Shown here one piece after another: positions 42,361 through 60,921 of a DNA stretch of 64,000 nucleotides (within the stretch, counting starts at the first letter, position 1; every line of letters begins with the position of its first letter). Position numbers and translations under genes: made by a program. Source of the DNA: an uncultured Winogradskyella sp. (GTDB lineage: Bacteria; Bacteroidota; Bacteroidia; Flavobacteriales; Flavobacteriaceae); NCBI RefSeq assembly GCF_947498005.1, contig NZ_CANMIW010000001.1:434001-498000 (forward strand), read 5' to 3'. The notes beneath the pieces were generated by a model, which was given only the letters and a program-made list of their open reading frames with translations, did no database searches and had not been told where the DNA came from.

Positions 42361-45300
42361 TTACTTCTCAACCGTGATCCATTCGCCTTTATTACGAACC
42401 AAATAATCATTATCATACATGGCTTCTGCTTGTGTGCCTGGTAAATAATAGGTGCCTAAATAAGACGCATTTAGTAAAACAGTAAATGTTTTAGTACCGT
42501 ATTTTCCTTTCTTATTTATATCAAAATAGAAATTGACACGATCATCTCTAATATCTGTATATCGCGCTTGGCTTACAGTAGTGTCTCCAAAAGCTGTGAA
42601 TCTTGTATTAACAATATCCCAACCAGATGGGAAAATTTGTGTCAATGCAACATCTCGTACGTAGTCGTTTGTTAAGTTTGAAATACTAACTGTTGCGACA
42701 AAATCTTGCCCTTGCTGTAATTTACTTACATCAATTTTATTGCCTTGCAGATCCTTATAGATTGTAGAAATAGTAAAACCTCTTTGCTCTGCTAATTCCT
42801 TACCTAATTTTAGCTTACCAGAACTTACGACTCTAACATAGACCAAATTATCTTTGGCATTATTAATTGAAATTTGGTTAGTACCATCTTTAATAGGAAT
42901 ACTACGTTGAGCAATAGCATTTTTAGTATCTATAGTCTCCGATTTTCCATTAATACTGTACGATAGTTTTAAATCTTTACCACCATTTTTTATGACCATT
43001 TTTCCCATTGCTAACAAACTATATGCTGTGGTTTGTGTACTCATCCAATTATCGCTAGATAAATCCTTAGCAATTGTTTTAGCTAAATCTCTAGCCTTTG
43101 GATTGCCAGTAATAATCATCGTTTCTAAAGCCATGGCTCTATTTCTGTCCACCGAACCATAAGTATAATAATTAGATCTAGGTGGCTGAAAATTGATATT
43201 TGCTGTCTTAGAAATAGCATCACTAGCCTCTTTTTGTCCTGCTAAAGCGTAAGCCGCTGCTAGTCGCCATTTGGCCTCGTTTGAAATTTCTTCAAACTCA
43301 CGTAATCTATTCATGCTTGCTAAATCAGGACTTCCTGCTAAAGCCAACGTGTATAAACGATACGCTTGTGCTAAATCTGAATGATAAATTTTATAGCTTG
43401 GTCGCCAATTTCTAGCTGCTTGTTTTTGGTAAGCCAACCAATTACTTTTAAAAGTTAATGGCAGAACAAATCCTTTTTTCTCTGCTTCAATCATAAAATG
43501 ACCTGCATAACTAGTACTCCAATCATTGGCTGTGTTTTCTCCCATCCAATAACTCATGCCACCATTTGGTTGCTGAAAATTACCTAATCGTTTAATACCA
43601 TTTTCAATATTACTTTGAAGTTCTTTTTTCTTTTTTGCTGACAAATCAAAAATATCTGCTAAAAATAATTGAGGGAAAACACTAGATGTCGTTTGCTCTA
43701 AACAACCATGTGGATAGCGAATTAAATATTGTAGTCTGCGTGTAAAATCCATTGGTGGTAAAGTTGAAAATTCTACCGTTGCTGAGTTAGTTCCTGATAC
43801 ACCAAATGTGGTTACATTTATTGTTTGTTTTGCGTTAGCTTCTAACTCATGGTCAATGACTTTAGACGTAAATGGATTAGGGTTTTCTACATCAATTTCA
43901 ACTTTATAGGTTGATTTTTCGCCATTTCCTGTTGCGATGACTTCAATGGTATTGATACCTTTAGCTTTAGTGACATCCAATTCAAAATATACCATTTTTT
44001 CGTCTGGTTTACTAAATTTTAAGGATTGAGACGATTCGCCTTTTACGGTTATGCCATCACTAAGTTTTAAAGACAGATTAACGTTTTTCACTTTATCTTC
44101 CATAGCAAAAACCGTAACAGGTAATGTTACTTTTTCACCTGGACTTAACTTTCTAGGTAAGGTTGCCAATACCATTAACGGCTGTTTAACTTGTACAGAT
44201 TTGTCTGCACTTCCGTAAGCTTCAGATGTGTTATTACCAGCAATAACCATTGCTCTAACTGCACCAATATAATTTGGCATTTTAAGTTGATGTGTTTTGG
44301 TTTTGCCTTCGCCTAAAAGGAATGGACCTAAATACGTTACTACAGGTTTAAAACGATTGGCTTTTTTGTTTTTTCCACCTGCTGCACTGCCATCGCCTCC
44401 AATAGCAAAAACTTGATCAATACTACCAGAGTAAGCACCAACAACATCGTCAAAAATATCCCAAGTTTTTACACGTAAAGCTTCGCGAGCATAGAAGCTA
44501 TCCCAAGCATTTGGTGTTTTAAAACGGGTTAAATCTAACAAGCCTTCCTCAACAACTGCGATAGTGTAAGTCATAGCTTTGTTGTTTTTCTCAGACACTT
44601 TTATCTCGTAAGATTGTTCTGGTCTTATAACATCTGGCATCTCAATTTTAGGTTCTAATTTTGTAGATGGATCTTCAACCATCATCGGAATAACACCATA
44701 TAATCGAATTGGTAAATCATTAGATGTAATAGCATGTGGTTGCAATAATGAAATATTAATAAATACATTTGGTGCCATTTCTGATGTCACAGGAATGTCA
44801 ACTGTTGTTTCGCCTTTTTTAGTTTTTACCCATTGGTGCTGTAATACTTCGGTCCCATTTTCTATACTAACTAATGCTCTTCCTTCAGTGCCAGAAGGGA
44901 AGGTTAACTTCGCCGTATCGCCAACATTATAGTTTTCCTTATCTGTAGAGAATACCAACATTTTAGCTGCCTCTTTATCGTTAGATGGGTTTGTGGACCA
45001 CCAATTTTTATAAAAATATGCAGTTCTTCCTGTGGCATGTCCACTTACAGGATCTACTATTCTAATTAAATAACGACCACGTTCGTTTTCAGGAATTTTA
45101 AGTTTGAAATTTGCTTTGCCATTCGCATCTGTGTTTACAGAAAATGTTTGAACTGGTCTATGGTAATTACTCGATACGTAACTCGATAAGTTGTCGTAAG
45201 AAGAATTCCACCACCAACGCCATTCAACCTTATAAACTTTAACTTCGAGATTTTTACGTTGTACAGGTTTGCCTTCTGCAGTTACAGTAGCGACATTAAA

Positions 45301-47934
45301 GGTGTGATTTTCGTCTGTGAAGAATGAGCCATAATTATTTCCCTTTGGCGATTTTAAGCCAACAAAACTCTCGTAAGGTGCGTAAGGCATTGAGAAAGCA
45401 TCTAGAGAAAAATCGCCTCCATTCTCAAAAGCTCTTACTAAAAATTGCGCTCTTAACATGCCTGGTGCATTTTTACCAATATTTAATTTTGAATTAATTT
45501 TTGCGTTTCCATCTTCATCTAAATTACCTTCAAAAACATTAGTTTCTTCTGAATTAAATGTTCTTGTAGGATCGTTAAAAACGTAATCCTTAAAACCTTC
45601 AAAACTGGTATACGATGATGTGAATTTTGCTTTTACTTCGGCTTTTAAATTTTTTGCAGGTGCACCATGTAACCAAGTGACATTTAAGTCGCCTTGAAGT
45701 GGTTTATTGTTGGTTAGAATTTCGTTTTCAAAATCTATTTTAATTTTAAGTCTATTTGGTTTTACAGTTTCAATTTTTAAACCTTTAGAGAATGTTGCGC
45801 CTCCAACAGATACTTTAGCATTATAATTTCCTGTTTTATAATCTGTTGAGGTTGGTACTATAAAATCGTAGAAATTATTAAGATTATCTACAGAGACTTT
45901 TCTGTAAACTAATTTACCTACAGGATCAGTGATTTCTAATTTTACAGGATGACGTTTAGGTAATTTGTTAGCATTATCATTAAGCATAAATGTTAAAAAC
46001 AAGCTGTCTCCTGGTCTCCAAACACCACGTTCTGCATAGATATAACCTTTTAATCCGCGTTGTAATCTGCTTCCTGACACATCAAATTTACTAAGAGATA
46101 AAGACATGCCATCATGTAATTTTACATAACTAACACTTTTTCCTTTAGATATAATTGCAAAAGCAGCTCTGTTTTTTGCATCAATTTTTATAATACCCTC
46201 TTGGTTGGTAATACCTTCTGCAAGTTCTTGCTGTTGATAATTGTATAAGGTTACTTTAGCGCCATTTTCTGGATCTGTATTTAAAATATTAGTAACCGCA
46301 AACATGTAGTTATTGTCGTTTCCTTGTTTTGCAATTACACCAAGATTTGAGCTTATTAAGTTCTGAGATACAACACGGTTTCCGTAGTTAAAATAAGAAT
46401 CTGTGCAAGGGTTATCTCTATCTCTCCAGCGGTAATTATTGTTTCTGTAGCTATAATTTAGGTTGTCCCAATATAGTTCTTCCCTATAATTTTCTTCTTC
46501 TTCAGTTAGCTCTTCTGAGGTATAATAATCTTCCCCATAATAATCGTCGTAGTAATCATCTTCATCAACATTTGTGGTTTCAGCTTTTGAAGAACAATCG
46601 TATAACGAGTACGACTTTTTATAGCTCAATTCTACACGATAAATAGCACCAGGATCTGCTGATAAGTATTTAGATAAATCTATGCTGTAGGCTTTCCATT
46701 TACCGGTGTTTTGGTTGTCTTCTTGAATTAAAGTTATGGTTTCCTTAGCTATGCGTCTTCCTACTTTTTTAATAGCATATTGATCATTGCTACCAATGTT
46801 ATAATCTTGTAAAAACTGAAGCACATTGTCTTCGTATATTTTAATAATCCTCACATCGACTTTACTCAAGTTAACAGCTTCAAAATTGAATTTTAAGTTA
46901 TTTGAATTTGGAAGAATACTTCCATTACTGATGAGTCTTACTTCGGGTTTAATTTCTTCAAAAGTGATCGTTTCTGAAAATGGTTTTTTTAATTTGAAGC
47001 CATCTGTATTTTTGATACCCTTAAAAACATCAACCTGAATTGTGCCAACTAATTTAGTGTTTGGATAGACTTTTAACACATTGCCATCTACAATATATTT
47101 TGGATTTTTTACACCTTGAATTGAAATTAAACCAGCAAAGTTTTGTTGCTTTACTAAAGGGTCTGAAAAATTTAGGGATAAATATTGCTCAGGACTTTGA
47201 ACAACCTCTGTATTTACAATGACAAAGTTGTTTTTTCCTGGAATGGTTAAAAAATTCTCGCCTTTGTTTTCTGCTTTTATCGCAGAACCATCCCAAGCGA
47301 TATCAATTTTACTGTCTTCAACTAAACGATTGATACTGTCTATTTTAAACTCGAAGTATTTTGAATATTCTAATTCCTCATTCCAAACTAATTTTAAATT
47401 TTTTGAGTTTTGAGATGCCGAAACTAACTTTTTAGCATCAGCAAGCGATATGACATCTGCAGATCTTAAATCCGCAAAAAGGTATTGCCATTCTTTACTG
47501 TAAGATTGCAAGTTTTGCGTTGTAATATTAAAGCTTGGTGTAATGGTTTTGAACTGAAATGTATAATCTTCAAACTCCTTTGGAATATCATCGTAAACCT
47601 CAGATAACTTTACTTTTACCGTGTATTCTGTAGCTGGTTCTAAATTTTCGTCTGGTGTAAAAAGCACAGTGTGATTGTTCATGGCTTTTAATTCGCCTTG
47701 AACGTGCGGTGTAATTTTTATAAGATCTGTTGGTAATACTTTATCAATTTCCCATCCAGCAACCGTATCAGAAAGACTAATTTTTATGGGTTCTGCAATA
47801 GAAACTAATCCAGAAGTGGTATAACTTATATAATTTCTGTACTTAAATACATTATCGGTTTCAATAGTTTTATCCTTACAAGAGAATGCAGAAATGACAA
47901 TTAGGAGTAGGACGAGGTGCTTTTTAATGTTCAT
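42361..47934 (-). CDS. Alpha-2-macroglobulin family lipoprotein (YfhM-like) with intact thioester
   Basis: 1857 residues. The lipobox at Cys19 (AFSCKDK) anchors it in the envelope. N-terminal macroglobulin-like domains follow, including the MG2-type RGVWRPGDSLFLTFMLND (about 640). A bait-region domain and the alpha-2-macroglobulin core (EGLLDLTRFKTPNAWDSFY, about 1130) lead to the thioester motif CLEQ at Cys1411-Gln1414 in a helical TED domain, so it can trap attacking peptidases covalently. A Tyr/Asp/Glu-rich insert sits at about 450-480. Bacterial versions guard the periplasm alongside PBP1C, whose gene is 4 kb downstream here. Confidence 0.94.
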   Translation of the reverse strand: MNIKKHLVLLLIVISAFSCKDKTIETDNVFKYRNYISYTTSGLVSIAEPIKISLSDTVAGWEIDKVLPTDLIKITPHVQGELKAMNNHTVLFTPDENLEPATEYTVKVKLSEVYDDIPKEFEDYTFQFKTITPSFNITTQNLQSYSKEWQYLFADLRSADVISLADAKKLVSASQNSKNLKLVWNEELEYSKYFEFKIDSINRLVEDSKIDIAWDGSAIKAENKGENFLTIPGKNNFVIVNTEVVQSPEQYLSLNFSDPLVKQQNFAGLISIQGVKNPKYIVDGNVLKVYPNTKLVGTIQVDVFKGIKNTDGFKLKKPFSETITFEEIKPEVRLISNGSILPNSNNLKFNFEAVNLSKVDVRIIKIYEDNVLQFLQDYNIGSNDQYAIKKVGRRIAKETITLIQEDNQNTGKWKAYSIDLSKYLSADPGAIYRVELSYKKSYSLYDCSSKAETTNVDEDDYYDDYYGEDYYTSEELTEEEENYREELYWDNLNYSYRNNNYRWRDRDNPCTDSYFNYGNRVVSQNLISSNLGVIAKQGNDNNYMFAVTNILNTDPENGAKVTLYNYQQQELAEGITNQEGIIKIDAKNRAAFAIISKGKSVSYVKLHDGMSLSLSKFDVSGSRLQRGLKGYIYAERGVWRPGDSLFLTFMLNDNANKLPKRHPVKLEITDPVGKLVYRKVSVDNLNNFYDFIVPTSTDYKTGNYNAKVSVGGATFSKGLKIETVKPNRLKIKIDFENEILTNNKPLQGDLNVTWLHGAPAKNLKAEVKAKFTSSYTSFEGFKDYVFNDPTRTFNSEETNVFEGNLDEDGNAKINSKLNIGKNAPGMLRAQFLVRAFENGGDFSLDAFSMPYAPYESFVGLKSPKGNNYGSFFTDENHTFNVATVTAEGKPVQRKNLEVKVYKVEWRWWWNSSYDNLSSYVSSNYHRPVQTFSVNTDANGKANFKLKIPENERGRYLIRIVDPVSGHATGRTAYFYKNWWSTNPSNDKEAAKMLVFSTDKENYNVGDTAKLTFPSGTEGRALVSIENGTEVLQHQWVKTKKGETTVDIPVTSEMAPNVFINISLLQPHAITSNDLPIRLYGVIPMMVEDPSTKLEPKIEMPDVIRPEQSYEIKVSEKNNKAMTYTIAVVEEGLLDLTRFKTPNAWDSFYAREALRVKTWDIFDDVVGAYSGSIDQVFAIGGDGSAAGGKNKKANRFKPVVTYLGPFLLGEGKTKTHQLKMPNYIGAVRAMVIAGNNTSEAYGSADKSVQVKQPLMVLATLPRKLSPGEKVTLPVTVFAMEDKVKNVNLSLKLSDGITVKGESSQSLKFSKPDEKMVYFELDVTKAKGINTIEVIATGNGEKSTYKVEIDVENPNPFTSKVIDHELEANAKQTINVTTFGVSGTNSATVEFSTLPPMDFTRRLQYLIRYPHGCLEQTTSSVFPQLFLADIFDLSAKKKKELQSNIENGIKRLGNFQQPNGGMSYWMGENTANDWSTSYAGHFMIEAEKKGFVLPLTFKSNWLAYQKQAARNWRPSYKIYHSDLAQAYRLYTLALAGSPDLASMNRLREFEEISNEAKWRLAAAYALAGQKEASDAISKTANINFQPPRSNYYTYGSVDRNRAMALETMIITGNPKARDLAKTIAKDLSSDNWMSTQTTAYSLLAMGKMVIKNGGKDLKLSYSINGKSETIDTKNAIAQRSIPIKDGTNQISINNAKDNLVYVRVVSSGKLKLGKELAEQRGFTISTIYKDLQGNKIDVSKLQQGQDFVATVSISNLTNDYVRDVALTQIFPSGWDIVNTRFTAFGDTTVSQARYTDIRDDRVNFYFDINKKGKYGTKTFTVLLNASYLGTYYLPGTQAEAMYDNDYLVRNKGEWITVEK

Positions 47935-48436: not shown

Positions 48437-50938
48437 TCACTTAACCATCACTTTAATATTGGTTGTTTTAAGGTTTGAATTTATATTTAAAAAATAAACG
48501 CCACTTTTTAAATGAGATAAGTCGAGTTCAGTATTCAATGTGTGATTGTTAAATTGAATTTCTTTTAGATTTCTACCATTTATATCAATTACTGAAATTG
48601 TAAGTAATGCTGTTTTACTAGATATATTTATTAAACCAGAAGTTGGGTTCGGAAAAATTGAGAAATTATTTATATCATAATCTGCATTAAAGAGTTGCTC
48701 AACAAATTCTGTAGATACGGTGTTTGTTGTTATTGCAGGATTAAAATCGAAATAAATGTCTGCTGTATTATTAACAATATCAGCGATCTGAACCGAATTT
48801 ATTGGTTTTATTTTGTAAGCAATATAACCATGGGAATTAGGTTCATCGTTAGTACTATCTGGTAGATTGATATCGTTAAATATAAAATTAACTTGCGTGT
48901 TGTTCGTTATTTCCACCCGACCATCATGACTTAAGGATTCTAGCTGCATGGTTGTCCAATCTAGTTTGTCATCTAATGTGTTTTCTACATTAACGTTTAT
49001 TGCTTCTGCAGTACCTGTATTTTGAAAACGAATGATATAATGTAAATATTCATCTGAATCATCAATATGAACAGTTTCACCTTCTAAAACTCTAATATCG
49101 TTAGGGTCATAAGCACCAATTACAAGATCTTTGAAGAGAAAAACATTGTCATCTGGTGTTTCATCTCCTGTTATTGGATTTACGGTTGCTGTAAATTCTA
49201 TAACATCGTCAATATTAGTTGTTGGTATCTGAAAAACATTAAATCTTAAATCAATGGTTCTAATTTCAAAAGGGCTGAGGTCTGTAAAACTTAAACTCAA
49301 TGAGGTATCTGAATCTTGAACAACATTTTCATTCGCAGTGATATATTGTATTTTTTCATCATCAAAGTCTAATGTTACACTACCAGTTAATTGTGTGTTA
49401 CCGTTATTACGATAGACGAGTTTGTAAATAATATCAAATCCTGGTCTAGGGTCAGATAATGGATATAGCGATATACTTAAATCATCTACAACACCAGAAC
49501 GTTGCAAGCAAAAATTGGCTGTATCAGTACTGCTATAACCTGTAAAAGAGGAGTCGTACGAGCTTGGGTATACATTAAAATAACTTGGTAATTGAGAGGC
49601 AATAGTTGTCGTATAATCGCCTTCACCTGGAAATAATTGATACAAACTATTATTTAAGGTCATTGATGTCAAAGTTTCTGTGCCATTTGTGGTTGTTATA
49701 AATATATTAGGTATGTCAATATTAGGATTTGTACAACCAGTGAGGTTAGTGTCTAGTTTTACATATCCTGAAATTTCATTACTTGAAATACCAAGGTTTT
49801 TATACCAACCCATATCAAAAGAACTGACAAAAGCTATATCTAGAATACCATCTTCATCTATATCTTTTACAGAAATAGTATGAGCACCATGACCAGGACC
49901 ACTAATACTTTGTATACTTCCAAAAGTACCAAGTCCGTCTAGGTTTTCAATCCAAACTATTTCAGCAGTTTCAACAGTTCCGCCATAGCTACCATAGGAT
50001 GCAATAATATCCAGATCGCCATCATTATCTAAATCGGCACTTTCAATTTCTTTCGGAAAGCTTAATTCGGTACTAATAATTTGTTGTGCACCAAAAGAAC
50101 CAAGACCATCTGTGTTTTCGTACCAGGCAATTTTACTATCACTAGAAGATGCCGAGAGTACATCTAAATCGCCATCACCATCTACATCAGCAAACGTAGC
50201 TTTATAAACATAACTTACAAATGTGGTAATAACTTCGCCTAATACAAAAGTGCCTTGCCCATCGGTATTTTTAAACCATCTTATTACGTTGTCGTAGTTT
50301 GAGGCTACAAGTAGATCCATATCTCCATCGCCATCAACATCTGCACTCTCAATATAATTTGCACCATCTGCATTATTAAAGATAACTTGTTTAGCTCCAA
50401 AGTTACCTAAGCCATCTGTGTTTTCATACCATGCCACAGTATCATCATAAGCAGAAGTTACAAGGACATCTAAATCACCATCCCCATCTATATCTTCTGC
50501 AAATACAGAAGAAGGTGCATTTTGAGTTTCTGTTATTATCTCCTCAGCATCAGTATCAAAATATACAAAACCATTGTACTCATTTCTATGCCAAGAGACC
50601 TTATCTTCTAATGAGTTTGCTGTAATAATATCTAAATCATTGTCACCATCTAAATCTGCAGCATATATAGAGGTTGCAAAGTTTAAACTAGAGATATAAG
50701 ATGGATAGGAAAAACTACCTTCGCCATTTACATTAGTAACAAATTTTACGCTGTCACCACTACCTGCATAAGTTGTAGAGTAAATAATGTCTAAATGTCC
50801 ATTATTTGTTATGTCCTCTACACAAAGTGATTCGTTGTAGGAGGCTTCACCATATACGTAATGTGCTTCAAAACCTAATTGGGCAAAGGTTAAGTTAAAA
50901 GCAAATAGCAAGAAAAGTGTAGGTAAAAATGACTTCAT
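48437..50938 (-). CDS. FG-GAP/VCBS-repeat surface protein with DUF7619-like domain and T9SS type-A signal
   Basis: 833 residues: signal peptide (ending NLTFAQ), then six or seven FG-GAP/VCBS blades (about 25-390) with calcium loops such as DIDGDGDLDV, DVDGDGDMDLL and DLDNDGDLDII, forming an integrin-like propeller. A surface domain (about 395-640) leads to a DUF7619-type segment (YLHYIIRFQNTGTAEAINV). The last 75 residues (NFSIFPNPTSGLINI ... LKSGVYFLNI) are the T9SS type-A sorting domain. It is secreted and cell-surface bound. Role is likely adhesive; no enzyme motif is seen. Confidence 0.9.
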   Translation of the reverse strand: MKSFLPTLFLLFAFNLTFAQLGFEAHYVYGEASYNESLCVEDITNNGHLDIIYSTTYAGSGDSVKFVTNVNGEGSFSYPSYISSLNFATSIYAADLDGDNDLDIITANSLEDKVSWHRNEYNGFVYFDTDAEEIITETQNAPSSVFAEDIDGDGDLDVLVTSAYDDTVAWYENTDGLGNFGAKQVIFNNADGANYIESADVDGDGDMDLLVASNYDNVIRWFKNTDGQGTFVLGEVITTFVSYVYKATFADVDGDGDLDVLSASSSDSKIAWYENTDGLGSFGAQQIISTELSFPKEIESADLDNDGDLDIIASYGSYGGTVETAEIVWIENLDGLGTFGSIQSISGPGHGAHTISVKDIDEDGILDIAFVSSFDMGWYKNLGISSNEISGYVKLDTNLTGCTNPNIDIPNIFITTTNGTETLTSMTLNNSLYQLFPGEGDYTTTIASQLPSYFNVYPSSYDSSFTGYSSTDTANFCLQRSGVVDDLSISLYPLSDPRPGFDIIYKLVYRNNGNTQLTGSVTLDFDDEKIQYITANENVVQDSDTSLSLSFTDLSPFEIRTIDLRFNVFQIPTTNIDDVIEFTATVNPITGDETPDDNVFLFKDLVIGAYDPNDIRVLEGETVHIDDSDEYLHYIIRFQNTGTAEAINVNVENTLDDKLDWTTMQLESLSHDGRVEITNNTQVNFIFNDINLPDSTNDEPNSHGYIAYKIKPINSVQIADIVNNTADIYFDFNPAITTNTVSTEFVEQLFNADYDINNFSIFPNPTSGLINISSKTALLTISVIDINGRNLKEIQFNNHTLNTELDLSHLKSGVYFLNINSNLKTTNIKVMVK

Positions 50939-51830: not shown

Positions 51831-52970
51831 TCAATTTTCTACTTTCAATTCCTTAAGTACTTTTATTGCATTCTCATTTTCTGGATTTAATTCTAGTGAT
51901 TTCTTATAGTTTTTAATGCCATTTTCTAAATCTCCCATACGTACTAAGCACTCGCCATAACTATCATAAGGGTTCCAAGAGTCTGGGTATAACTCTATAT
52001 TGAGTTTAAAAATTTTTATAGCATCTTCTGGCTTTTTGAATGTATTTAAGTAATAATAACCTAAAGAATTTATATAGCGTTCTGAAATGTTATAATCCGG
52101 ATTGTCTCTATCTTGGGCTTCTATAACTGCAATAATTTCGTCTGCTGTTTTACCTGTATTTACAAGTTTATCTAAAGTTTTAAATTCCGTTACAACCCTT
52201 TCAAGATCCTTGTACGGATTGCCTAATTCCTCATTGATTAATAAAAATAGATTATTAGCATCTTCTTGTATAGATTTTAAATTTCTAAAGGTATCAAGTT
52301 CTCCTATGTTTTTGGCAAAATAGGATGACACTATAATTAGAGCAATTTCTGAATAATTATCTTCTATTTCTAAATCTTTATAAAGTTGCTCATTTAATGT
52401 GTTCTTTCCATTAAATGAAATAAGATTAGGATTATAGCCTAAAACTGTAGCTCTACTTATTTCATTTAAAAAATTATCATAATTATTATTACTCGCTTTA
52501 TAAGATCTGTCTTGGTCATTTTTTAGTTCAATGAGTTTATTTCTAATTTCTGTTGGTATTAATTTTATATCACCTGTGGCTTGTAAAGTCTCTATAGTAT
52601 TGGTGTTAAAATTAGTGTAAGCAGTTGTAGTGTATTCAAGTTCTAGGGAACTTAATATAATGGCTTCTGGACTGTTTTGAGATGGTAATTTTTTTACAAA
52701 TTCGTTGTATGATGATAAGTAATTTGATTCCAAAGTGTTGATATCATAATGCATGCGATTGTAGTCTTTTGCTAAGTCTGTTATAATTTGATGGTAGTAA
52801 TTTTCTAAAACAGTATTAGTTTTCCTTTTTTCGTTCCAATTATTTATTTGAAGCGCAATGAGAATTCCAATAACTACAAGAATGATTTCGCCAATGGCAT
52901 ATTTAAAGTACTTGCCAGTTTTGTTTTCTGAGAGTAAGTTTTGGCGGATTTTTCGGAAGAATTTTATCAT
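51831..52970 (-). CDS. DUF6090 family protein with C-terminal TPR (array member 1, promoter-distal)
   Basis: 379 residues. The first 45 (MIKFFRKIRQNLLSENK, then KYFKYAIGEIILVVIGILIA) are the array's invariant module: a basic segment, one membrane helix at about 24-43, then QINNWNEKRK. The basic side suggests the N-terminus is cytoplasmic and the remainder periplasmic. The second shared motif is at about 125-148 (TIETLQATGDIKLIPTEIRNKL). Uniquely it ends with tetratricopeptide repeats (about 300-375: NSLGYYYLNTFKKPEDAIKIF, then NPYDSYGECLVRMGDLENGI). It is the last gene of the operon. Its 5' flank shares GTTAGTGTTTGG with member 2. Function unknown. Confidence 0.82.
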   Translation of the reverse strand: MIKFFRKIRQNLLSENKTGKYFKYAIGEIILVVIGILIALQINNWNEKRKTNTVLENYYHQIITDLAKDYNRMHYDINTLESNYLSSYNEFVKKLPSQNSPEAIILSSLELEYTTTAYTNFNTNTIETLQATGDIKLIPTEIRNKLIELKNDQDRSYKASNNNYDNFLNEISRATVLGYNPNLISFNGKNTLNEQLYKDLEIEDNYSEIALIIVSSYFAKNIGELDTFRNLKSIQEDANNLFLLINEELGNPYKDLERVVTEFKTLDKLVNTGKTADEIIAVIEAQDRDNPDYNISERYINSLGYYYLNTFKKPEDAIKIFKLNIELYPDSWNPYDSYGECLVRMGDLENGIKNYKKSLELNPENENAIKVLKELKVEN

Positions 52971-53030
52971 TGGTTAGTGTTTGGTCTCAATGCTTTGAGT
53001 ATTAGTATAATGTAGATAGTTGCGCTTTTA

Positions 53031-53777
53031 TTATTTGTTCAATTCTTTATTAATGAGATTTGTAATTTCATCCATGTCAGATAAAATTTTCTTGAATCTT
53101 ATAAGACTTCCTTTTTCCGATTCAACCTTCATAAATTGGCTGTTTTCTAATAAAAAAAGAAGCTCTATTAAGTTTTTTTCTTCAAATAGATATTCCGATA
53201 GTTTGGGCTGATTTTGTATGTTTTTAAAGGCAAATTCTTCACTTCCAAATTTATTAGCTGCCGCAGATGTCCCTTCACCAGATTTATCATTGTTGTATTT
53301 AGAAACTTTTTCTGTTTGTTCTTTATATTTTTCTAAACGGATAATTTGTTCTCTAATAATAGGTGGTATGAATTTGATGTCGCCCGTATTCTGTAATGTA
53401 TGTGTCGTGTTAGATTTGAATTGAACATTATAAAGTGGCCAAGCTAAATTTCTAACCTCAGATATTATTTGGAATATTGGTAAGTTTGGTTGATTATAAA
53501 TTTCTTTATAGGCTCTAAATTTTACCATATTAGAATCTATTCTTGAAGAATACTCTTTTATATATGCTTTGTCGTTCTCAAAATCTTGTAGTAGTTGTTT
53601 ATAATAAACTTGTCTTAAATTTTCAGTTTTCCGTTCATCATTGAGGTTATTTAGTTGTAAGGCAATTAAAATTCCCAGCACTACAAGGATAATTTCACCA
53701 ATAGCGTATTTAAGGTACTTTCCTATTTTGTTTTTTTCCATAAGGTCGTATCGTATTTTTCTAAAAAACTTAATCAT
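53031..53777 (-). CDS. DUF6090 family protein (array member 2)
   Basis: 248 residues. N-terminal module MIKFFRKIRYDLMEKNK then YLKYAIGEIILVVLGILIALQ with one membrane helix (about 24-43), followed by a helical region. The second motif reads TTHTLQNTGDIKFIPPIIREQI (about 108-130), which is closest to that of member 1. It ends in a helical segment with no further domain. It lies 60 bp upstream of member 1 and 56 bp behind member 3. Confidence 0.8.
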   Translation of the reverse strand: MIKFFRKIRYDLMEKNKIGKYLKYAIGEIILVVLGILIALQLNNLNDERKTENLRQVYYKQLLQDFENDKAYIKEYSSRIDSNMVKFRAYKEIYNQPNLPIFQIISEVRNLAWPLYNVQFKSNTTHTLQNTGDIKFIPPIIREQIIRLEKYKEQTEKVSKYNNDKSGEGTSAAANKFGSEEFAFKNIQNQPKLSEYLFEEKNLIELLFLLENSQFMKVESEKGSLIRFKKILSDMDEITNLINKELNK

Positions 53778-53833
53778 TTGTTAGTGTTTGGATCCAAGCC
53801 TTTAGGCATGAATAAGATTTATATTGTCGTACT

Positions 53834-54541
53834 CTAATTATCATCTTTTAATTCTGCAAAAACGGCCTTTAGTTTATTAAAGGATTTTATTGAACGCTCA
53901 TAGGCTTCTTTATTTAGATTTAAAGAGGTTCGTCGGGCTAAAATATAATTCTGAAAATGGATTTCTTTTGCATAATTTTTTGCGGTTAACTGCATTTCAA
54001 AAAAGCTCACATTTTTAATTAAAAAATTAAAATAATAATCTTCAAATCCGCTAAAATCTAAATCTTCAACATATTTAACGTCATTAATTGTTTCATAAGC
54101 TTCAGATATTGAGTTACGCAAGTTTAAATCATCAAACAGTTTTAAGTCACCAGAAAATTTCAAATTTTCATAGGTTACCGTTGATGGGTTGAAGTATTCA
54201 GTATCCATTAGCTTAAAGGCTTTAGGTGGCAATTTTGGGTTATCGTAGCCTTTGTTATATAATATGTAACTTAAAGTATCAACTTCTTTAAGCATTTCTA
54301 TTGTAAAATCTTTAAGTTCTTTTAATCGTTCAATGTTGCGGTTGGCTTCATCTTCTAGCTGAATGATATATAAATCGCGTAATTCTAAGTTATTTTTTTC
54401 TTTTGCATTTTCGTTAATGGCTAATGCAATAAGAATACCTATTATCACCAAGACTATTTCGCCAATGGCATAAATTAGATATTTACTGAATTTGTTTTCA
54501 GAGAGAAGTTTTTTTCTAATGTGTCTAAAAAACTTAATCAT
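53834..54541 (-). CDS. DUF6090 family protein (array member 3)
   Basis: 235 residues from the ATG at 54541 (MIKFFRHIRKKLLSENK); the frame opens 14 codons earlier, but those codons do not match the family. The membrane helix (YAIGEIVLVIIGILIALAIN) is followed by a helical domain with the second motif TYENLKFSGDLKLFDDLNLRNS. The NNWNE stretch after the helix is replaced by NENAKEK, so it is more diverged there. Function unknown. Confidence 0.8.
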   Translation of the reverse strand: MIKFFRHIRKKLLSENKFSKYLIYAIGEIVLVIIGILIALAINENAKEKNNLELRDLYIIQLEDEANRNIERLKELKDFTIEMLKEVDTLSYILYNKGYDNPKLPPKAFKLMDTEYFNPSTVTYENLKFSGDLKLFDDLNLRNSISEAYETINDVKYVEDLDFSGFEDYYFNFLIKNVSFFEMQLTAKNYAKEIHFQNYILARRTSLNLNKEAYERSIKSFNKLKAVFAELKDDN

Positions 54542-54607
54542 ATTAAAGGTTTTTAAAGTTCCGCAAGCGATTATCTCAACCAATGGTTGACGAGATATTA
54601 GATTTAA

Positions 54608-55390
54608 TTATTTATTCTTTTCTAAATAATCATTTATGAGTTTAATTGTTGCTTTACCTTTTACGTAAAGGGTATTTCTAACATTGTTACTGTACACAAT
54701 GTTTGCTTTTAGTATTGTTAAATCTTTGAGTCCTTCTTTTTTTTGAACGTCATTAAAATTATCATAAAAGTTAATGATGTCTTCATAAGTTACCGCGTTA
54801 GTATTTGAATTCCATCTAGGTGCCAATGAAGCTTCATATATAAAGGCATTGTCTATATAATTACCCATGCTGTAATAGGTGTCTGTTTGTATGGCAACGT
54901 AGGTGTTTTCTTGTTTTATAACTTCTTCTACTTGCTTATAATAGCTTTGTATACTTTCTTTTAATTCCTCCGAAGCGATTAGTGCTAGCTTACCAGAAAA
55001 TTTCATTTCACTGAATACCACATCATTTCCTTCGAACCAGTGGGTTTTCTGAGTGTTACTTAAAGCTCCTAAGAAAGCTTGTTGGTTTAACTTAATTGAA
55101 TTGGTCCTTAGCGTACGCATTATCTGAGTAAATGCATCTAGTTTTAGTGTGTCTGTATTAAAATGCATCTCAAGTTCTTTTTGGTCTTTGTTTAAATCAG
55201 ATAGAATTCTTTGCAGATAGTTTTGTTCGTATTGGGTATTTTTTCTGTTTTCGTTCCAATTATTAATTTGCAGGGCAATTAAAATTCCTATTACTACAAG
55301 CACAATTTCTCCGATGGCGTATCTAAAGTACTTACTTGTTCTGCCTGTTTCCATTAGGTTGTATCTTATTTTTCTAAAAAATTTTATCAT
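54608..55390 (-). CDS. DUF6090 family protein (array member 4)
   Basis: 260 residues. N-terminal module MIKFFRKIRYNLMETGR with membrane helix YAIGEIVLVVIGILIALQIN and NNWNENRK. The second motif is VFSEMKFSGKLALIASEELKES, followed by QSYYKQVE. The ATG overlaps the stop of member 5 by four bases, so translation is coupled. No extra domain at the C-terminus. Confidence 0.8.
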   Translation of the reverse strand: MIKFFRKIRYNLMETGRTSKYFRYAIGEIVLVVIGILIALQINNWNENRKNTQYEQNYLQRILSDLNKDQKELEMHFNTDTLKLDAFTQIMRTLRTNSIKLNQQAFLGALSNTQKTHWFEGNDVVFSEMKFSGKLALIASEELKESIQSYYKQVEEVIKQENTYVAIQTDTYYSMGNYIDNAFIYEASLAPRWNSNTNAVTYEDIINFYDNFNDVQKKEGLKDLTILKANIVYSNNVRNTLYVKGKATIKLINDYLEKNK

Positions 55391-56142
55391 GGTTTCAAGT
55401 TTAGCTCTGAATTTAATAAGTTGGTTAGGCGCTCTCTCATGGCTTTAAATTCTTGCAAAGCGTACTTTTGATAAACAAGCATCTCTAACTTAAGTGTTAT
55501 AATATTCCATGCTTCTAAATTATTAAATAGCTTTTCAAAATCAGTTTCAGGTCCTCCAGGTACGAGGCTTTCTTTATACATGTCTAGAGCAATTTGTGAG
55601 TAATTAAGATGGTTGTTAATAAAAGGTTCTATAGTTAAAGAATATTGATCAACAATGCCTGTATCGAGACTATTAAAACGGTTCAGTTGAATACTAAATG
55701 CTTGCAACTCATCTTTAATTTTGGTGTTATTTACTTTAGCTAAATAGCCTTCATTCATAAATTCTTCAACAATTGGATAATTAAAATTAGTGACCCAAGC
55801 TGTGCATAATGCACCTAAGGTTTTTTGTAGCGTTGGTATAGAATCTTTGTTGTTAGAACTTAATATTTCAAGTGTTTTTCTATTTAGCATTACTAAACTA
55901 TCAATTCCAATGATAAAATTGTCTAGTTCATCACGACTACTTTCTAACTCTTCATGCATGCGTTTGTAGTAGTTACTTAATGTGAGTTTTTGAAGCCGTT
56001 TTTCATTCCAGTTATTAATCTGAAGTGCAATGAGGATACCAATAACCACGAGGAATATTTCGCCAATGGCGTATTTAAAATATTTGCCAGTTTTATCTTC
56101 TGCGAGTAGATTTTGTCTAATTTTTCTAAAGAATTTTATCAT
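55387..56142 (-). CDS. DUF6090 family protein (array member 5)
   Basis: 251 residues from the ATG at 56142 (MIKFFRKIRQNLLAEDK), chosen because the 16 preceding codons of the open frame overlap member 6 and lack homology. Membrane helix YAIGEIFLVVIGILIALQIN, then NNWNEKRL. The second motif is weaker (IVEEFMNEGYLAKVNNTKIKDE). The start module is close to member 1 at both protein and DNA level, while the C-terminal halves share little. Confidence 0.8.
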   Translation of the reverse strand: MIKFFRKIRQNLLAEDKTGKYFKYAIGEIFLVVIGILIALQINNWNEKRLQKLTLSNYYKRMHEELESSRDELDNFIIGIDSLVMLNRKTLEILSSNNKDSIPTLQKTLGALCTAWVTNFNYPIVEEFMNEGYLAKVNNTKIKDELQAFSIQLNRFNSLDTGIVDQYSLTIEPFINNHLNYSQIALDMYKESLVPGGPETDFEKLFNNLEAWNIITLKLEMLVYQKYALQEFKAMRERLTNLLNSELNLKP

Positions 56143-56152
56143 GGATTGATTG

Positions 56153-56890
56153 CTAGTTTGGTAATGTTTTAATTGCAATTTCTTTCTCAATCATCTCAAT
56201 AAGTTCAGACTGTAATTGTTGTAGATATTGATACAAGCCAATAAATCCTTCCTGCGCCTTTATGAATAAAATAACTGTTTCTTTAAATTGATTATCAAAG
56301 ACGAGTGTATTTAGATCTAATGGTTTAGCTTTCCATTTAGAAACGCTCTTAACTTTTGATGTTAATTGTGGTAATAGTAAAGAATATTTCATTGCTTCCA
56401 TATGTTCGGATTCCATACGCTCTACAAAAGGATATTGTTGTGCATACAACTCATGTATTTTACCACGAAGACTATCATTTTTGATGAGATCAAAGCCTAT
56501 GGATTTGAGATTTTCATAACTCGATTTAACAATAGCGATCTTACTTGTGTAGGTGTTTAAATGGCTGTAATGTGTAGCCATAGAATCGTTCCAGGCTATG
56601 TTGTTTTCAAGTTGATATTGAATTGCTTCTGCAGAATGAAGCACTCTTGTGTTGCGCACTATATTGCCCGCCATATCTATTGAATCGGTTTTGAGATTAC
56701 CGTGCATTTCATTTAGTAACTTGTATTCCTTGATGTCATTATTGCGTCGATCATTCCAGTTATTAATTGAAAGGGCAATCAAAATCCCAATAACCACGAG
56801 GATGATTTCTCCAAGGGCGTATTTCAAGTACTTGGAAGTTTTGTTTTCCATGAGTAACGATTTACGAATATGTTTAAAGAATTTTATCAT
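56153..56890 (-). CDS. DUF6090 family protein (array member 6)
   Basis: 245 residues. N-terminal module MIKFFKHIRKSLLMENK with membrane helix YALGEIILVVIGILIALSIN and NNWNDRRN. The second motif is SYENLKSIGFDLIKNDSLRGKI, then HELYAQQYPFV. It lies 10 bp upstream of member 5 and 29 bp behind member 7. Helical throughout; no extra domain. Confidence 0.8.
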   Translation of the reverse strand: MIKFFKHIRKSLLMENKTSKYLKYALGEIILVVIGILIALSINNWNDRRNNDIKEYKLLNEMHGNLKTDSIDMAGNIVRNTRVLHSAEAIQYQLENNIAWNDSMATHYSHLNTYTSKIAIVKSSYENLKSIGFDLIKNDSLRGKIHELYAQQYPFVERMESEHMEAMKYSLLLPQLTSKVKSVSKWKAKPLDLNTLVFDNQFKETVILFIKAQEGFIGLYQYLQQLQSELIEMIEKEIAIKTLPN

Positions 56891-56919
56891 ATCTATTTCC
56901 CTTGTATTAGGGAATCCTT

Positions 56920-57960
56920 TTAGTTAGAAGTTTCTTTGTTGTTTTTTATAAATCTATCATTCCCTCCAAAGCCACTAAATTCAATAATAGCCTGGTTTTG
57001 CTTGTTTTTATACAATTTAACAATAACACTAGCTTCTTTAATAAAATAATAATCGCCCTCATGCCAGTATAGCTTTACGTCTGGCATAATTGGTGATTTC
57101 AATACTAATCGTTCATTTTCCATACTAACAGAGACTGTTACACCAAGTGCTGCTGAAGCACCTTTGTAATCGCCTAAAAAATCTTTTATGCTTTCTTTTT
57201 TAGGGCATAGCATAAACGGTTCATTATATTCAGTAGATGTTTTATCCAATAAGGAATCTATTTTTTTATAGAGTATGATACTCTCAACTCTATATTCATT
57301 AGCGGCATTAGAGATGTTTCCTAAATCGTTCATGTATATTGACGATTTGTTTTTAAGAAATGGGTCGTTAAAATAATAGGCCATCGCCTCATCAAGATAT
57401 CTTCCCATACTGTAGTCGGCAATTTTTGGGTTTGCCATTAGGTCTTTACGACCATCTATCATCACTGTATTTTTAATAAAGGTGTTGTAATCGTCGATTT
57501 CGTTTTGAATTTCAACGTATAAATTATTCAAATAAGGAATAAGGTAATTATATTTTTCGGGTAAATTTTCCAGGTTATTTAATAATCGATTATAACCGCC
57601 TTTTTTATTACTGAAAGAGACATAATTTCCAGTAATTGGCAATGGATATGGATTCTTTTTATACACCTCAAAAGTGATGGAATCATTCATTATTTTTTGA
57701 AATAGTGAATCTTTTCCGATATAAACGTTATAAATACGTTTGGCATCTATAATGTCTGTTTTTAAATCTTGCTGTACTTGAGTAAGGATAGCTTTTATTT
57801 TTTTTTCATTTTGGGATGCATTATAAATACTGTTTATGCCTACCGCAATGAGAATGCCTATAACCACAAGGAAAATTTCGCCAATGGCGTATTTAAAGTA
57901 CTTGCTAGATTTGCGTTTTTCTAAAAGGTTGAATCTTATTTTTCTAAAAAATTTAATCAT
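56920..57960 (-). CDS. DUF6090 family protein with C-terminal beta domain (array member 7)
   Basis: 346 residues. The N-terminal module MIKFFRKIRFNLLEKRK with YAIGEIFLVVIGILIAVGIN is intact, but the following NNWNE is lost (SIYNASQ). The middle is the most diverged of the set (GYNRLLNNLENLPEKYNYLI at the position of motif two). The last 95 residues are beta-rich (FLGDYKGASAALGVTVSVSM, then YWHEGDYYFIKEASVIVKLY), resembling a DUF3471-like lipocalin module, an addition no other member has. Its ATG overlaps the stop of the TerB-like gene by one base. Confidence 0.78.
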   Translation of the reverse strand: MIKFFRKIRFNLLEKRKSSKYFKYAIGEIFLVVIGILIAVGINSIYNASQNEKKIKAILTQVQQDLKTDIIDAKRIYNVYIGKDSLFQKIMNDSITFEVYKKNPYPLPITGNYVSFSNKKGGYNRLLNNLENLPEKYNYLIPYLNNLYVEIQNEIDDYNTFIKNTVMIDGRKDLMANPKIADYSMGRYLDEAMAYYFNDPFLKNKSSIYMNDLGNISNAANEYRVESIILYKKIDSLLDKTSTEYNEPFMLCPKKESIKDFLGDYKGASAALGVTVSVSMENERLVLKSPIMPDVKLYWHEGDYYFIKEASVIVKLYKNKQNQAIIEFSGFGGNDRFIKNNKETSN

Positions 57961-58295
57961 TAGTAAAGTATATTATCTAAGGTCATGTCTAAACGTTCTT
58001 CCATCATACTAAAACTGCAATCCGAAAAAAATATCTTATACATTTCTCGTCTAAAAGCAGCTAATTCCATTTGGCTATAATTGTGATTGTCAATGCAAGA
58101 TTCAATTTTATCTAGTCGCTTTTTGGAAGCGTGTTTATGAAACTTTTTATGCATTTTTAGAAATGTTTTTTTGCTAGTCTTCTTTTGTATCATATCTAAT
58201 TCTTCTTCAGTTTCGGTTTTATCTGCATTAGCACAGAGTAGCATAATGTAAACTTGTAATTCACTTTTAGTCCAGTTTGGTTTTTTAGTTTTCAT
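57960..58295 (-). CDS. Small TerB-like helical protein inside the DUF6090 array
   Basis: 111 residues, no signal or membrane helix, hence cytosolic. ELQVYIMLLCANADKTETEEELDMIQ resembles the first helices of TerB/DjlA-type domains, where an acidic D-x-E pair binds divalent metal; the rest is basic and helical with HKKFHKHASKKRLD. It is the only non-DUF6090 gene in the operon, 15 bp downstream of member 8 and overlapping member 7 by one base, so its product probably works with theirs. The family call is tentative. Confidence 0.6.
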   Translation of the reverse strand: MKTKKPNWTKSELQVYIMLLCANADKTETEEELDMIQKKTSKKTFLKMHKKFHKHASKKRLDKIESCIDNHNYSQMELAAFRREMYKIFFSDCSFSMMEERLDMTLDNILY

Positions 58296-58310
58296 GATGT
58301 TTATATTTAA

Positions 58311-59090
58311 TTAATAGCTTTCAGTGTTTTCTAATTCGTGTTCAACTTCTTTTAATATGTTTTCTATTTGCGATTTAATGCCGCTAAATAATCGAGGACC
58401 ATTTGTAGCCTTAGCTAATAAATAATAATCCACTAAATAGTTTTCAAATTCAATAGAAGTGAAGATGTCCTTATTATTTGTTTTTGCAGATATGGATTGC
58501 AACTCTGAATCAATCATTTTTAAATCCATAACAATAGTTTTAGCACTTCCGTTTTTAAAAAAAAGACTGGTTAATTTTCGTTGTGTAAAATCGGCATCGT
58601 TTAATTGGGTGCTTAAATAGTTTATAGTGCTTTCAAAAGAAGCTAGATCTTTTCTTAAGTTTTTATTTAAAATTAGATTGAGTTTACCAGAACTAATAAT
58701 ATCATTTAACACTCCTGTAGCTGGTACATATTGAATATCACTACCTAAAATAGGTCCAAGTAATTGAGAGATTGTCTGTGGTCTAATAGTATCGAGTACA
58801 TTGTCATTGAATAAGGTTAAAACCTTTTCTAAGGTTTGTACACGTTGTTCATTGACATTTATTGAAGTGTTTATTTTTTGTAGATTAATTTCAAATTCTG
58901 ATTGAAGAGACGTTAGATATTCGCGTTCTATCTTTCTTTGCGCATTGAAGTTGTTGTTGTTATTAATACCTAGTGCAATGAGAATCCCAATGACCACGAG
59001 GATAATTTCTCCAATAGCATAGATGAGATATCTCGAAAATTTGTTTTCGGTTAGAAGCCGTTGTCTAAAACGACGAAATAATGTTATCAT
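58311..59090 (-). CDS. DUF6090 family protein (array member 8, first in operon)
   Basis: 259 residues. Its N-terminus is the most divergent of the array (MITLFRRFRQRLLTENK) but keeps the membrane helix YAIGEIILVVIGILIALGIN. The Asn run NNNNNF replaces NNWNE. The second motif is VLNDIISSGKLNLILNKNLRKD. It is the promoter-proximal gene, divergent from the aldehyde dehydrogenase through 277 bp in which I see only weak promoter matches. Confidence 0.8.
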   Translation of the reverse strand: MITLFRRFRQRLLTENKFSRYLIYAIGEIILVVIGILIALGINNNNNFNAQRKIEREYLTSLQSEFEINLQKINTSINVNEQRVQTLEKVLTLFNDNVLDTIRPQTISQLLGPILGSDIQYVPATGVLNDIISSGKLNLILNKNLRKDLASFESTINYLSTQLNDADFTQRKLTSLFFKNGSAKTIVMDLKMIDSELQSISAKTNNKDIFTSIEFENYLVDYYLLAKATNGPRLFSGIKSQIENILKEVEHELENTESY

Positions 59091-59367: not shown

Positions 59368-60921
59368 ATGGAAGCAATTGCTACCGATTTCGGAATAAAA
59401 GACGCTTTAAATCAGTTAGGTGTTAAGGATCTAAATGAAGGTACTTCAACAGGCTCTGATAATTTTTCTAATGGAGAGATTATTGAAAGTTATTCTCCTG
59501 TAGATGGCCAATTAATTGGCAAAGTAAAATCTACGACAAGAGCAGATTATAATAAGGTAATGGATGCTGCAACCAGTGCATTTTTATCTTGGAGAGACAA
59601 GCCAGCACCACAACGTGGCGAAATAGTACGTCAGTTTGGGAATAAGCTAAGAGACTTAAAAGAACCCTTAGGGAAATTGGTGTCTTACGAAATGGGTAAA
59701 TCTTTACAAGAAGGTTATGGTGAAGTACAAGAAATGATTGATATCTGTGATTTTGCAGTAGGTTTATCACGTCAACTAAATGGACAAACGATTCCTTCAG
59801 AGCGTCCTGGTCACGTCATGAGAGAGCAATGGCATCCCATAGGTGTAGTTGGTATTATCTCAGCTTTTAATTTTCCGGTTGCAGTCTGGGCTTGGAATAC
59901 GGCTTTAGCATGGATTTGTGGTGATGTTTGTGTTTGGAAAGCATCAGAAAAAGCGCCTTTGTGTTCTATCGCTTGCCAGAATATTATAGCAGGTATCTTA
60001 AAAGAAAATAACCTACCAGAAGGAATATCTTGTATCATTAATGGCGACTATAAAGTTGGAGAAATGATGACAACAGACTCTAGAATTCCTCTAGTGTCTG
60101 CTACAGGTTCTACAAGAATGGGACGAATTGTTGGTGCAACAGTTGCTGAACGTTTCGGAAAATCATTATTAGAATTAGGAGGAAACAATGCGATAATAAT
60201 CACACCAACTGCAGATTTAAAAGTGGTTGTTCCTGGTGCTGTTTTTGGTGCTGTTGGAACTTGTGGGCAACGTTGTACATCAACGAGACGATTAATTATA
60301 CACGAATCCGTTTACGATAAAGTAAGAGATGCCATTGTTGGTGCTTATGGACAATTGACCATAGGGAATCCTTTAGATGAAAAAAATCATATTGGACCTT
60401 TGATTGACAAAGAATCAGTAAACACATATTTAGCTGCGATTGAAAAAGCAAAAGCAGAAGGTGGAAATGTTTTAGTAGGAGGCGGTGTTTTAGAAGGCCA
60501 AGGTTACGAATCTGGTTGCTACGTTAAACCAGCAATTATCGAAGCAGAAAATCATTTTGAAATTGTACAGCACGAAACTTTTGCACCAATATTATATTTA
60601 ATGAAATATTCTGGTGAGGTAGAAAATGCCATCTCTAAACAAAATGGTGTTGCTCAAGGCTTATCATCAGCCATTATGACTAATGAAATGAAAGAAGCAG
60701 AGAAATTCTTGTCTTATGCTGGTTCAGACTGTGGTATTGCAAATGTAAATATTGGAACATCTGGTGCTGAAATTGGAGGTGCTTTTGGTGGTGAAAAAGA
60801 AACTGGAGGAGGACGCGAGTCTGGTTCTGATGCTTGGAAAGTTTACATGAGAAGACAAACTAATACAATCAATTATTCTGATGAGTTGCCTTTAGCGCAA
60901 GGCATTAAATTTGATCTTTAA
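59368..60921 (+). CDS. ALDH7-type aldehyde dehydrogenase (aminoadipate-semialdehyde dehydrogenase-like)
   Basis: 517-residue NAD-dependent cytosolic dehydrogenase. The catalytic nucleophile is Cys303 in GTCGQRCTSTRRL, where the GQRCT-x-x-RR context is typical of family 7 (antiquitin), and the general-base Glu lies in LLELGGNNAII (about 269). The long lead-in MEAIATDFGIKDALNQLGV and the end GGGRESGSDAWKVYMRRQT also fit family 7. The expected reaction is oxidation of alpha-aminoadipate semialdehyde in lysine breakdown, but related aldehydes are possible. A second Cys at 299 is unusual but not disabling. Terminator follows. Confidence 0.9.
   Translation: MEAIATDFGIKDALNQLGVKDLNEGTSTGSDNFSNGEIIESYSPVDGQLIGKVKSTTRADYNKVMDAATSAFLSWRDKPAPQRGEIVRQFGNKLRDLKEPLGKLVSYEMGKSLQEGYGEVQEMIDICDFAVGLSRQLNGQTIPSERPGHVMREQWHPIGVVGIISAFNFPVAVWAWNTALAWICGDVCVWKASEKAPLCSIACQNIIAGILKENNLPEGISCIINGDYKVGEMMTTDSRIPLVSATGSTRMGRIVGATVAERFGKSLLELGGNNAIIITPTADLKVVVPGAVFGAVGTCGQRCTSTRRLIIHESVYDKVRDAIVGAYGQLTIGNPLDEKNHIGPLIDKESVNTYLAAIEKAKAEGGNVLVGGGVLEGQGYESGCYVKPAIIEAENHFEIVQHETFAPILYLMKYSGEVENAISKQNGVAQGLSSAIMTNEMKEAEKFLSYAGSDCGIANVNIGTSGAEIGGAFGGEKETGGGRESGSDAWKVYMRRQTNTINYSDELPLAQGIKFDL

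Follow-up and report, generated by a model that had tools for sequence, protein, structure and literature searches.

Recombining arrays of membrane-anchored DUF6090 genes in Winogradskyella: apparent exchange through a shared gene start and a possible immunity-like role

The window analyzed here is a 64,000-nucleotide stretch of the genome of an uncultured Winogradskyella sp. (contig NZ_CANMIW010000001.1, positions 434,001 to 498,000), and its minus strand holds at positions 51831-59090 nine co-directional open reading frames (ORFs), eight of the DUF6090 type and one small gene. The DUF6090 proteins follow one plan, in which the near-constant first ~46 residues (a cytosolic helix and one transmembrane (TM) helix) precede a divergent domain. 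The array is very probably a recombining one with exchanged members; judging from the sequences compared, genes are lost, gained and fused anew by recombination between their 5' modules, and 3' parts cross species. What is new here is the mode of array evolution, by recombination inside a shared gene start. That the whole represents an exchangeable repertoire of inner-membrane-anchored proteins, an immunity-like role included, is put forward as a tentative explanation, with somewhat less than an even chance of being correct.

The same chromosomal place was located in relatives through a fixed flank, the divergent aldehyde dehydrogenase gene at 59368-60921 (plus strand), present in 57 of the 60 genomes compared from the genus (E <= 1e-150). 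The 57 loci that were compared come from 56 of these 57 genomes (G058 is omitted as its contig ends at the gene) and from W. eximia (L063). Their 127 full-length DUF6090 genes fall into 71 groups by the 3' part at 60% identity, and give 187 between-genome pairs of the same group; these ortholog pairs share genomes and are non-independent, and their selection at 3'-part identity of at least 60% favors low divergence. In 84 pairs the 3' nucleotide identity is at least 0.88, and 39 of these are less than 0.80 identical over the first 19 codons. At a 3' identity limit of 0.85 there are 115 pairs, for which identity over codons 6-20 is two-peaked, being at least 0.9 in 48, 0.8-0.9 in 5 and lower in 62. 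Codons 6-20 of the 62 low-identity pairs lie near the background of unrelated pairs, with background identity over codons 6-15 that climbs through the TM codons to ~0.9. This 5'-module discordance among pairs with conserved 3' parts refutes the simple picture of a fixed anchor with a diversifying remainder. The first-pass annotation, made from the letters of the window, had proposed a fixed anchor with a variable exposed part; the anchor module is indeed common to the genes, but it is swapped between them, and some of the "variable" parts hardly differ from one species to the next.

The exchange is also seen within single genes, in 19 hybrid comparisons (11 distinct genes): upstream sequence and start correspond to one gene of a second genome, and the 3' part to a different gene of that genome. 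The gene matching the 3' part always lies downstream of the gene matching the start (19 of 19), which is the order predicted by deletion or insertion. An informative-site test of 13 comparisons, covering all 11 hybrid genes, gave fits from 53/75 to 65/65 and 84/84, the last two with one switch each; permutation gave p <= 0.0005 in 11 of the 13, and 0.0095 and 0.0070 in the remaining two. Switch points range from the start codon to codon 43. With regard to the array itself, the gene at 56153-56890 (minus strand, 245 aa, Pfam 41.0 bits) is absent from G047, its place being bridged by a hybrid gene, while in G002 the first array gene and the small gene are absent and a hybrid is present instead, a noisier case with a fit of 76/95.

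The 5' module is linked with its own upstream sequence (33 disjoint pairs, table 10, 2, 9, 12; p = 0.033). Several more specific descriptions of the process were tried and set aside. Strong homogenization of modules within a genome does not hold, as module nucleotide identity is 0.729 within and 0.704 between genomes, a slight difference. A donor could not be assigned to every swapped module, a non-orthologous match of at least 0.9 being present for 18 of 43 genes only. A unit of the lpl type, in which the end of one gene is kept together with the start of the next, is not the general rule either, since in 92 pairs with a differing next 3' part the next 5' start averages 0.685 identity, the background being 0.637. 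In a scan for integron-like cassette repeats at L052 only the DUF6090 starts stood out, one locus being too few for exclusion.

Movement between species is indicated by synonymous divergence (dS), the mean of which over the 187 pairs is 0.415 for the 3' part as compared to 0.731 for the dehydrogenase; in 92 of the 187 the 3'-part dS is less than half that of the neighboring dehydrogenase (e.g. 0.037 vs 0.864). Same-group 3' parts recur in several species, and near copies occur in other genera: Arcticiflavibacter luteus (91% over 582 bases), Flavobacteriaceae bacterium S0862 (87%) and Croceitalea dokdonensis (85-86%), all by plain nucleotide identity without dS control. The variable parts had been marked for a check of the ratio of nonsynonymous to synonymous divergence (dN/dS), and the 3'-part median of 0.26 (122 pairs with dS < 0.5) is above the 0.042 of the dehydrogenase and the 0.062 of the small array gene, while remaining in the purifying range.

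Copy number varies widely among relatives, both per genome and at the locus. Per genome, the N-terminal module is present in 0 to 53 copies among the 60 genomes of the genus, with at least one in 55 (E <= 0.001); taking one genome per genus of the family Flavobacteriaceae, 72 of 120 genera carry it (E <= 1e-8), the highest count being 46. The genome under study has 10 matches, 8 of them inside the array. Beside the dehydrogenase, 1 to 14 DUF6090 genes lie at 24 of the 57 loci, every one listed pointing away from it, and the other 33 have none; these counts take in truncated ORFs and rest on a stretch of at most ~17 kb, some loci being cut by contig ends (e.g. L131, L153). Scattered singletons alone in relatives would have spoken against an array; instead, same-locus arrays of up to 14 genes were found, though 33 of the 57 loci are empty. 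Named matches also include Algoriphagus, Portibacter and a contig from a metagenome-assembled genome (MAG) filed as Gammaproteobacteria. The latter (L087:1-12635) holds three N-module genes together with an ORF whose 3' part stands behind a different TM helix, and is either a misbinned contig or a sign of a wider family.

These distributions bear on a near-neutral explanation, in which recombination through the shared module alone swells and shrinks the arrays of an accessory envelope scaffold whose bundles do similar work. The 33 empty loci and the 5 of 60 genomes without DUF6090 genes fit such an expansion, as do the truncated copies within arrays (66, 54, 140, 145, 152, 98 and 135 aa) and the accessory, metabolic character of the neighbors. 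It is considered unlikely, given the purifying selection on the 3' parts, the persistence of long arrays with open reading frames, and the recurrence of the same 3' parts across several species.

In terms of protein anatomy, the 5' module encodes a short basic amphipathic helix followed by one nearly invariant TM helix. Mean entropy is 0.25 bits over residues 31-40 and 2.5-3.6 over most of the 3' part. Over codons 21-43, the same codon is used for shared residues at a rate of 0.49-0.53 as compared to 0.425 expected; therefore, protein sequence accounts for most of the DNA conservation. Of 425 ORFs retrieved with only the 3' part as query, 414 have the module, and most of the other 11 resemble fragments. 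The divergent part is predicted to be a periplasmic four-helix bundle, with the N-terminus of the protein placed inside by its positive charge. Structure prediction had been proposed for all eight proteins; single-chain models of two give a helical bundle in the first case and helices with added strands in the second. For 53031-53777, modeled with 112 sequences, the result has a mean predicted local distance difference test score (pLDDT) of 93.8 and a predicted template-modeling score of 0.84, with a helix at 2-14, a long helix at 18-94 containing the TM segment, and a bundle up to residue 246. The 56920-57960 model has helices followed by six strands at 277-329, at a lower-confidence mean pLDDT of 72.4. 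The remainders are diverged and predicted to face outward, as first described, but they are not unrelated domains, since they align as one family with a single predicted helical-bundle fold. Among 29 long members, the tails match DUF3471 in five, TPR in two, and ankyrin repeats and DUF6197 in one each.

Fold searches against solved structures, with the viral fold library outside the search, gave generic bundles, sensor domains among them, and no specific relative. The proteins might be ligand-binding sensor subunits, the bundles binding small molecules and signaling through the invariant TM helix to one shared membrane partner, which we consider a rather improbable alternative.

A side observation concerns the module itself. 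In ten DUF6090 genes the N-terminal module is interrupted, at about the same place before the TM helix, by a short in-frame insert that is GC-rich and palindrome-like (L060:12280, 13983 and 16312; L079:8352, 10886 and 12496; L092:10787; L095:10001, 10791 and 11566). A near-identical insert is common to several genes of a genome, whose 3' parts are ~22-29% alike where they match. Either the inserts were carried along when the module was copied, or one site has received insertions repeatedly.

The array at 51831-59090 was originally described as nine co-directional genes with gaps of -4 to 66 bp and overlaps of 4 and 1 bp, and the ORF coordinates agree, the gaps from low to high coordinate being 60, 56, 66, -4, 10, 29, -1 and 15 bp (the 56-bp gap assumes the ATG at 54541 as the start of the third gene in that order). 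All genes lie on the minus strand. First in transcription order is the DUF6090 gene at 58311-59090 (259 aa, 33.0 bits), which has same-place orthologs in L021 and L023, and whose 46-codon N-terminal module (58953-59090) is of the kind that starts the other seven DUF6090 genes and serves as the putative recombination tract. After the small gene at 57960-58295 (111 aa) come 56920-57960 (346 aa with the extra beta-strand tail, 25.2 bits), the already mentioned 56153-56890, 55387-56142 (251 aa, 23.1 bits), 54608-55390 (260 aa, 37.8 bits), 53834-54541 (235 aa, 16.9 bits), 53031-53777 (248 aa, 26.3 bits) and finally 51831-52970 (379 aa, 36.6 bits), the tail of which resembles TPR at just below the cut-offs (TPR_8 24.8, TPR_1 26.3). 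The curated cut-off of Pfam DUF6090 (PF19578), 23.5 bits, is exceeded by six of the eight proteins; 53834-54541 and 55387-56142 fall below it and were grouped by alignment of the N-terminal module. The proposal that all eight share this module is upheld by the alignment, in which 19 of 55 columns are invariant. In the 13 pairs listed, identity is 61-93% over the first 46 residues and, in local alignments, 20-38% for the remainders. Beyond the array, the window holds two large ORFs at 42361-47934 (1857 aa) and 48437-50938 (833 aa), the latter with a C-terminal end that we take to resemble a type IX secretion sorting domain.

The co-directional layout is more than chance and extends to other arrays. 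Across 112 loci with 469 DUF6090 genes, mostly picked for holding such genes, all 323 adjacent pairs less than 1.5 kb apart are co-directional and none are opposite. Gene starts (n=469) read ATGATTAA in 218 and ATGATAAA in 170; overlaps of 8 bp occur in 80 of the 323 pairs, nearly all using ATGATTAA, whose TAA terminates the preceding gene. A consensus scan of the array for promoter-like sites gave 37 against a shuffle mean of 42.6, hence no excess, and a flavobacterial promoter pattern, TAnnTTTG, was not found upstream. A literature search on the name DUF6090 found no paper, and related searches found none on the array by title, in both cases with subscription papers and preprint servers mostly uncovered.

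The small gene at 57960-58295 had been labeled TerB-like, and this label is weak. The protein has no Pfam or NCBIfam match over cut-off and none to Pfam TerB (PF05099) up to E 0.1; it is small and helical, and can at most be called TerB-like. A relative with 32% identity, encoded elsewhere in this genome, does match TerB at E 0.02, with 15.6 bits against a cut-off of 24.4. Orthologs occur at the same place in 12 of the 57 loci, this one included, with a dN/dS of 0.062 and a median dS of 1.46 over 66 pairs. At L022 (G010) an 82% identical copy is present with no DUF6090 gene alongside.

The mechanism proposed builds on the recombination between 5' modules and the movement of 3' parts between species seen in the sequences. 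The invariant TM helix would be the docking site for a single membrane partner common to all, or for the other copies, with a different outside agent bound by each bundle; antibacterial proteins or peptides that enter the periplasm are the likeliest agents. The set would thereby act as a bank of immunity proteins, its content renewed by recombination and uptake. The immunity-like role facing the periplasm is suggested by analogy, because of the anatomy and the precedent of immunity arrays that recombine likewise (PMC9484751); we hold it tentatively, as a reading that may well prove wrong.

Several observations weigh against this role, among them that no toxin partner is recognized and that the neighbors are metabolic. 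Neighbor scans cover 105 of the 185 neighbor genes found, and within them the best 25 of 96 Pfam families include no toxin family, and no recurrent toxin partner; the commonest are PF00144 hydrolases (6/105), aldehyde dehydrogenase (5) and RidA-type proteins (4). The DUF3471 (5/29) and TPR (2/29) tails, together with the PF00144 neighbors, suggest envelope enzymes rather than antagonism. The VipA model of the type VI secretion system matched in 0 of 60 genomes, though it may miss the Bacteroidota type. Foldseek gave no fold match at E <= 0.001, its matches being generic, and the 3'-part dN/dS, elevated as it is, is still purifying. As for single cases, a ParE-like toxin gene lies inside an array at L090:9539-9838, the sole such array case noted. 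Arrays of other genera (L090, L052, L039) are interrupted by accessory genes, namely this ParE-like toxin, DUF1697 and a beta-lactamase-family hydrolase with a TPR tail; the hydrolase is embedded at L039, and its tail resembles that of 51831-52970.

A repertoire that blocks phage entry in the manner of superinfection exclusion, with bundles in the periplasm that would bind phage proteins or stop DNA from entering, would also suit proteins that are membrane-anchored, predicted to be exported, diversified and exchanged between species. We judge it quite unlikely. With a 60-aa N-terminal piece as the query, no match was found in 50,697 phage records or in plasmid records. In a separate search of viral contigs none of 118 pattern stretches was confirmed, and PHROGs gave weak matches only (best E 0.00098); carriage as phage or plasmid cargo was rejected likewise, with no confirmed relatives on phage, plasmid or viral records. 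PADLOC returned nothing below E 0.09 for the array proteins, and among the 105 neighbors its matches are sparse (best 25 of 49), with PD-T4-2_B in 3 (best E 3e-16) and other families in 1 each. No recurrent defense partner was found among the neighbor genes scanned.

To our knowledge, the DUF6090 expansion (0-53 copies within the genus; 72 of 120 genera) is among the larger unexplained protein expansions known in these bacteria. A broader reading, which we regard as possible but doubtful, is that marine Bacteroidota hold sets of dozens of membrane-anchored recognition proteins in the periplasm, encoded on the chromosome and driven by homology, and that their near-universal 5' module would be both docking helix and crossover site; foreign 3' parts, acquired from other species, would be spliced in frame behind a resident start, making the arrays shared, renewable banks of envelope specificity across genera. 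The comparisons show concretely how a single conserved gene start allows unrelated-looking ends to be swapped and shared between species. Should an immunity-like or recognition role prove true, the means by which marine flavobacteria withstand attack from one another would become testable, with the arrays serving as a ready list of the specificities at work.

In comparing the arrays to known systems, PF19578 is the family passed by six of the eight proteins, and it carries no assigned function. In gut Bacteroidales, the rAID arrays are recombinase-associated sets of orphan immunity genes, whose tested members have SUKH domains (PMC12247911). The likeness lies in arrays of Bacteroidota, rAID being immunity-type genes without their toxins, whereas the proteins described here match DUF6090 rather than SUKH, and a shared anchor module is mentioned for rAID neither in the abstract nor in the outline of that work (PMC12247911). 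In the lpl lipoprotein cluster of S. aureus, tandem paralogues with an anchor are reported to recombine by way of a conserved block within the gene (PMC9484751), and the DUF6090 arrays share these features; the reported lpl unit of a gene end and the next gene's start is not generally kept in them. The esaG and tipC immunity gene families of type VII secretion in Staphylococcus and Streptococcus recombine through shared blocks and vary in number (PMC9484751). Non-identical tandem paralogues, variable copy number and recombination via conserved blocks are common to these families and to DUF6090, and TipC is described there as membrane-bound and outward-facing, just as the array proteins are anchored and predicted to face outward (PMC9484751). 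In contrast to esaG and tipC, no toxin gene was recognized at the DUF6090 locus by family-model searches of the array proteins or among the best 25 of 96 families for 105 of 185 neighbors, and the arrays belong to Bacteroidota, to another family and fold, with a single 5' block that includes the TM helix and with exchange that appears to run between species.
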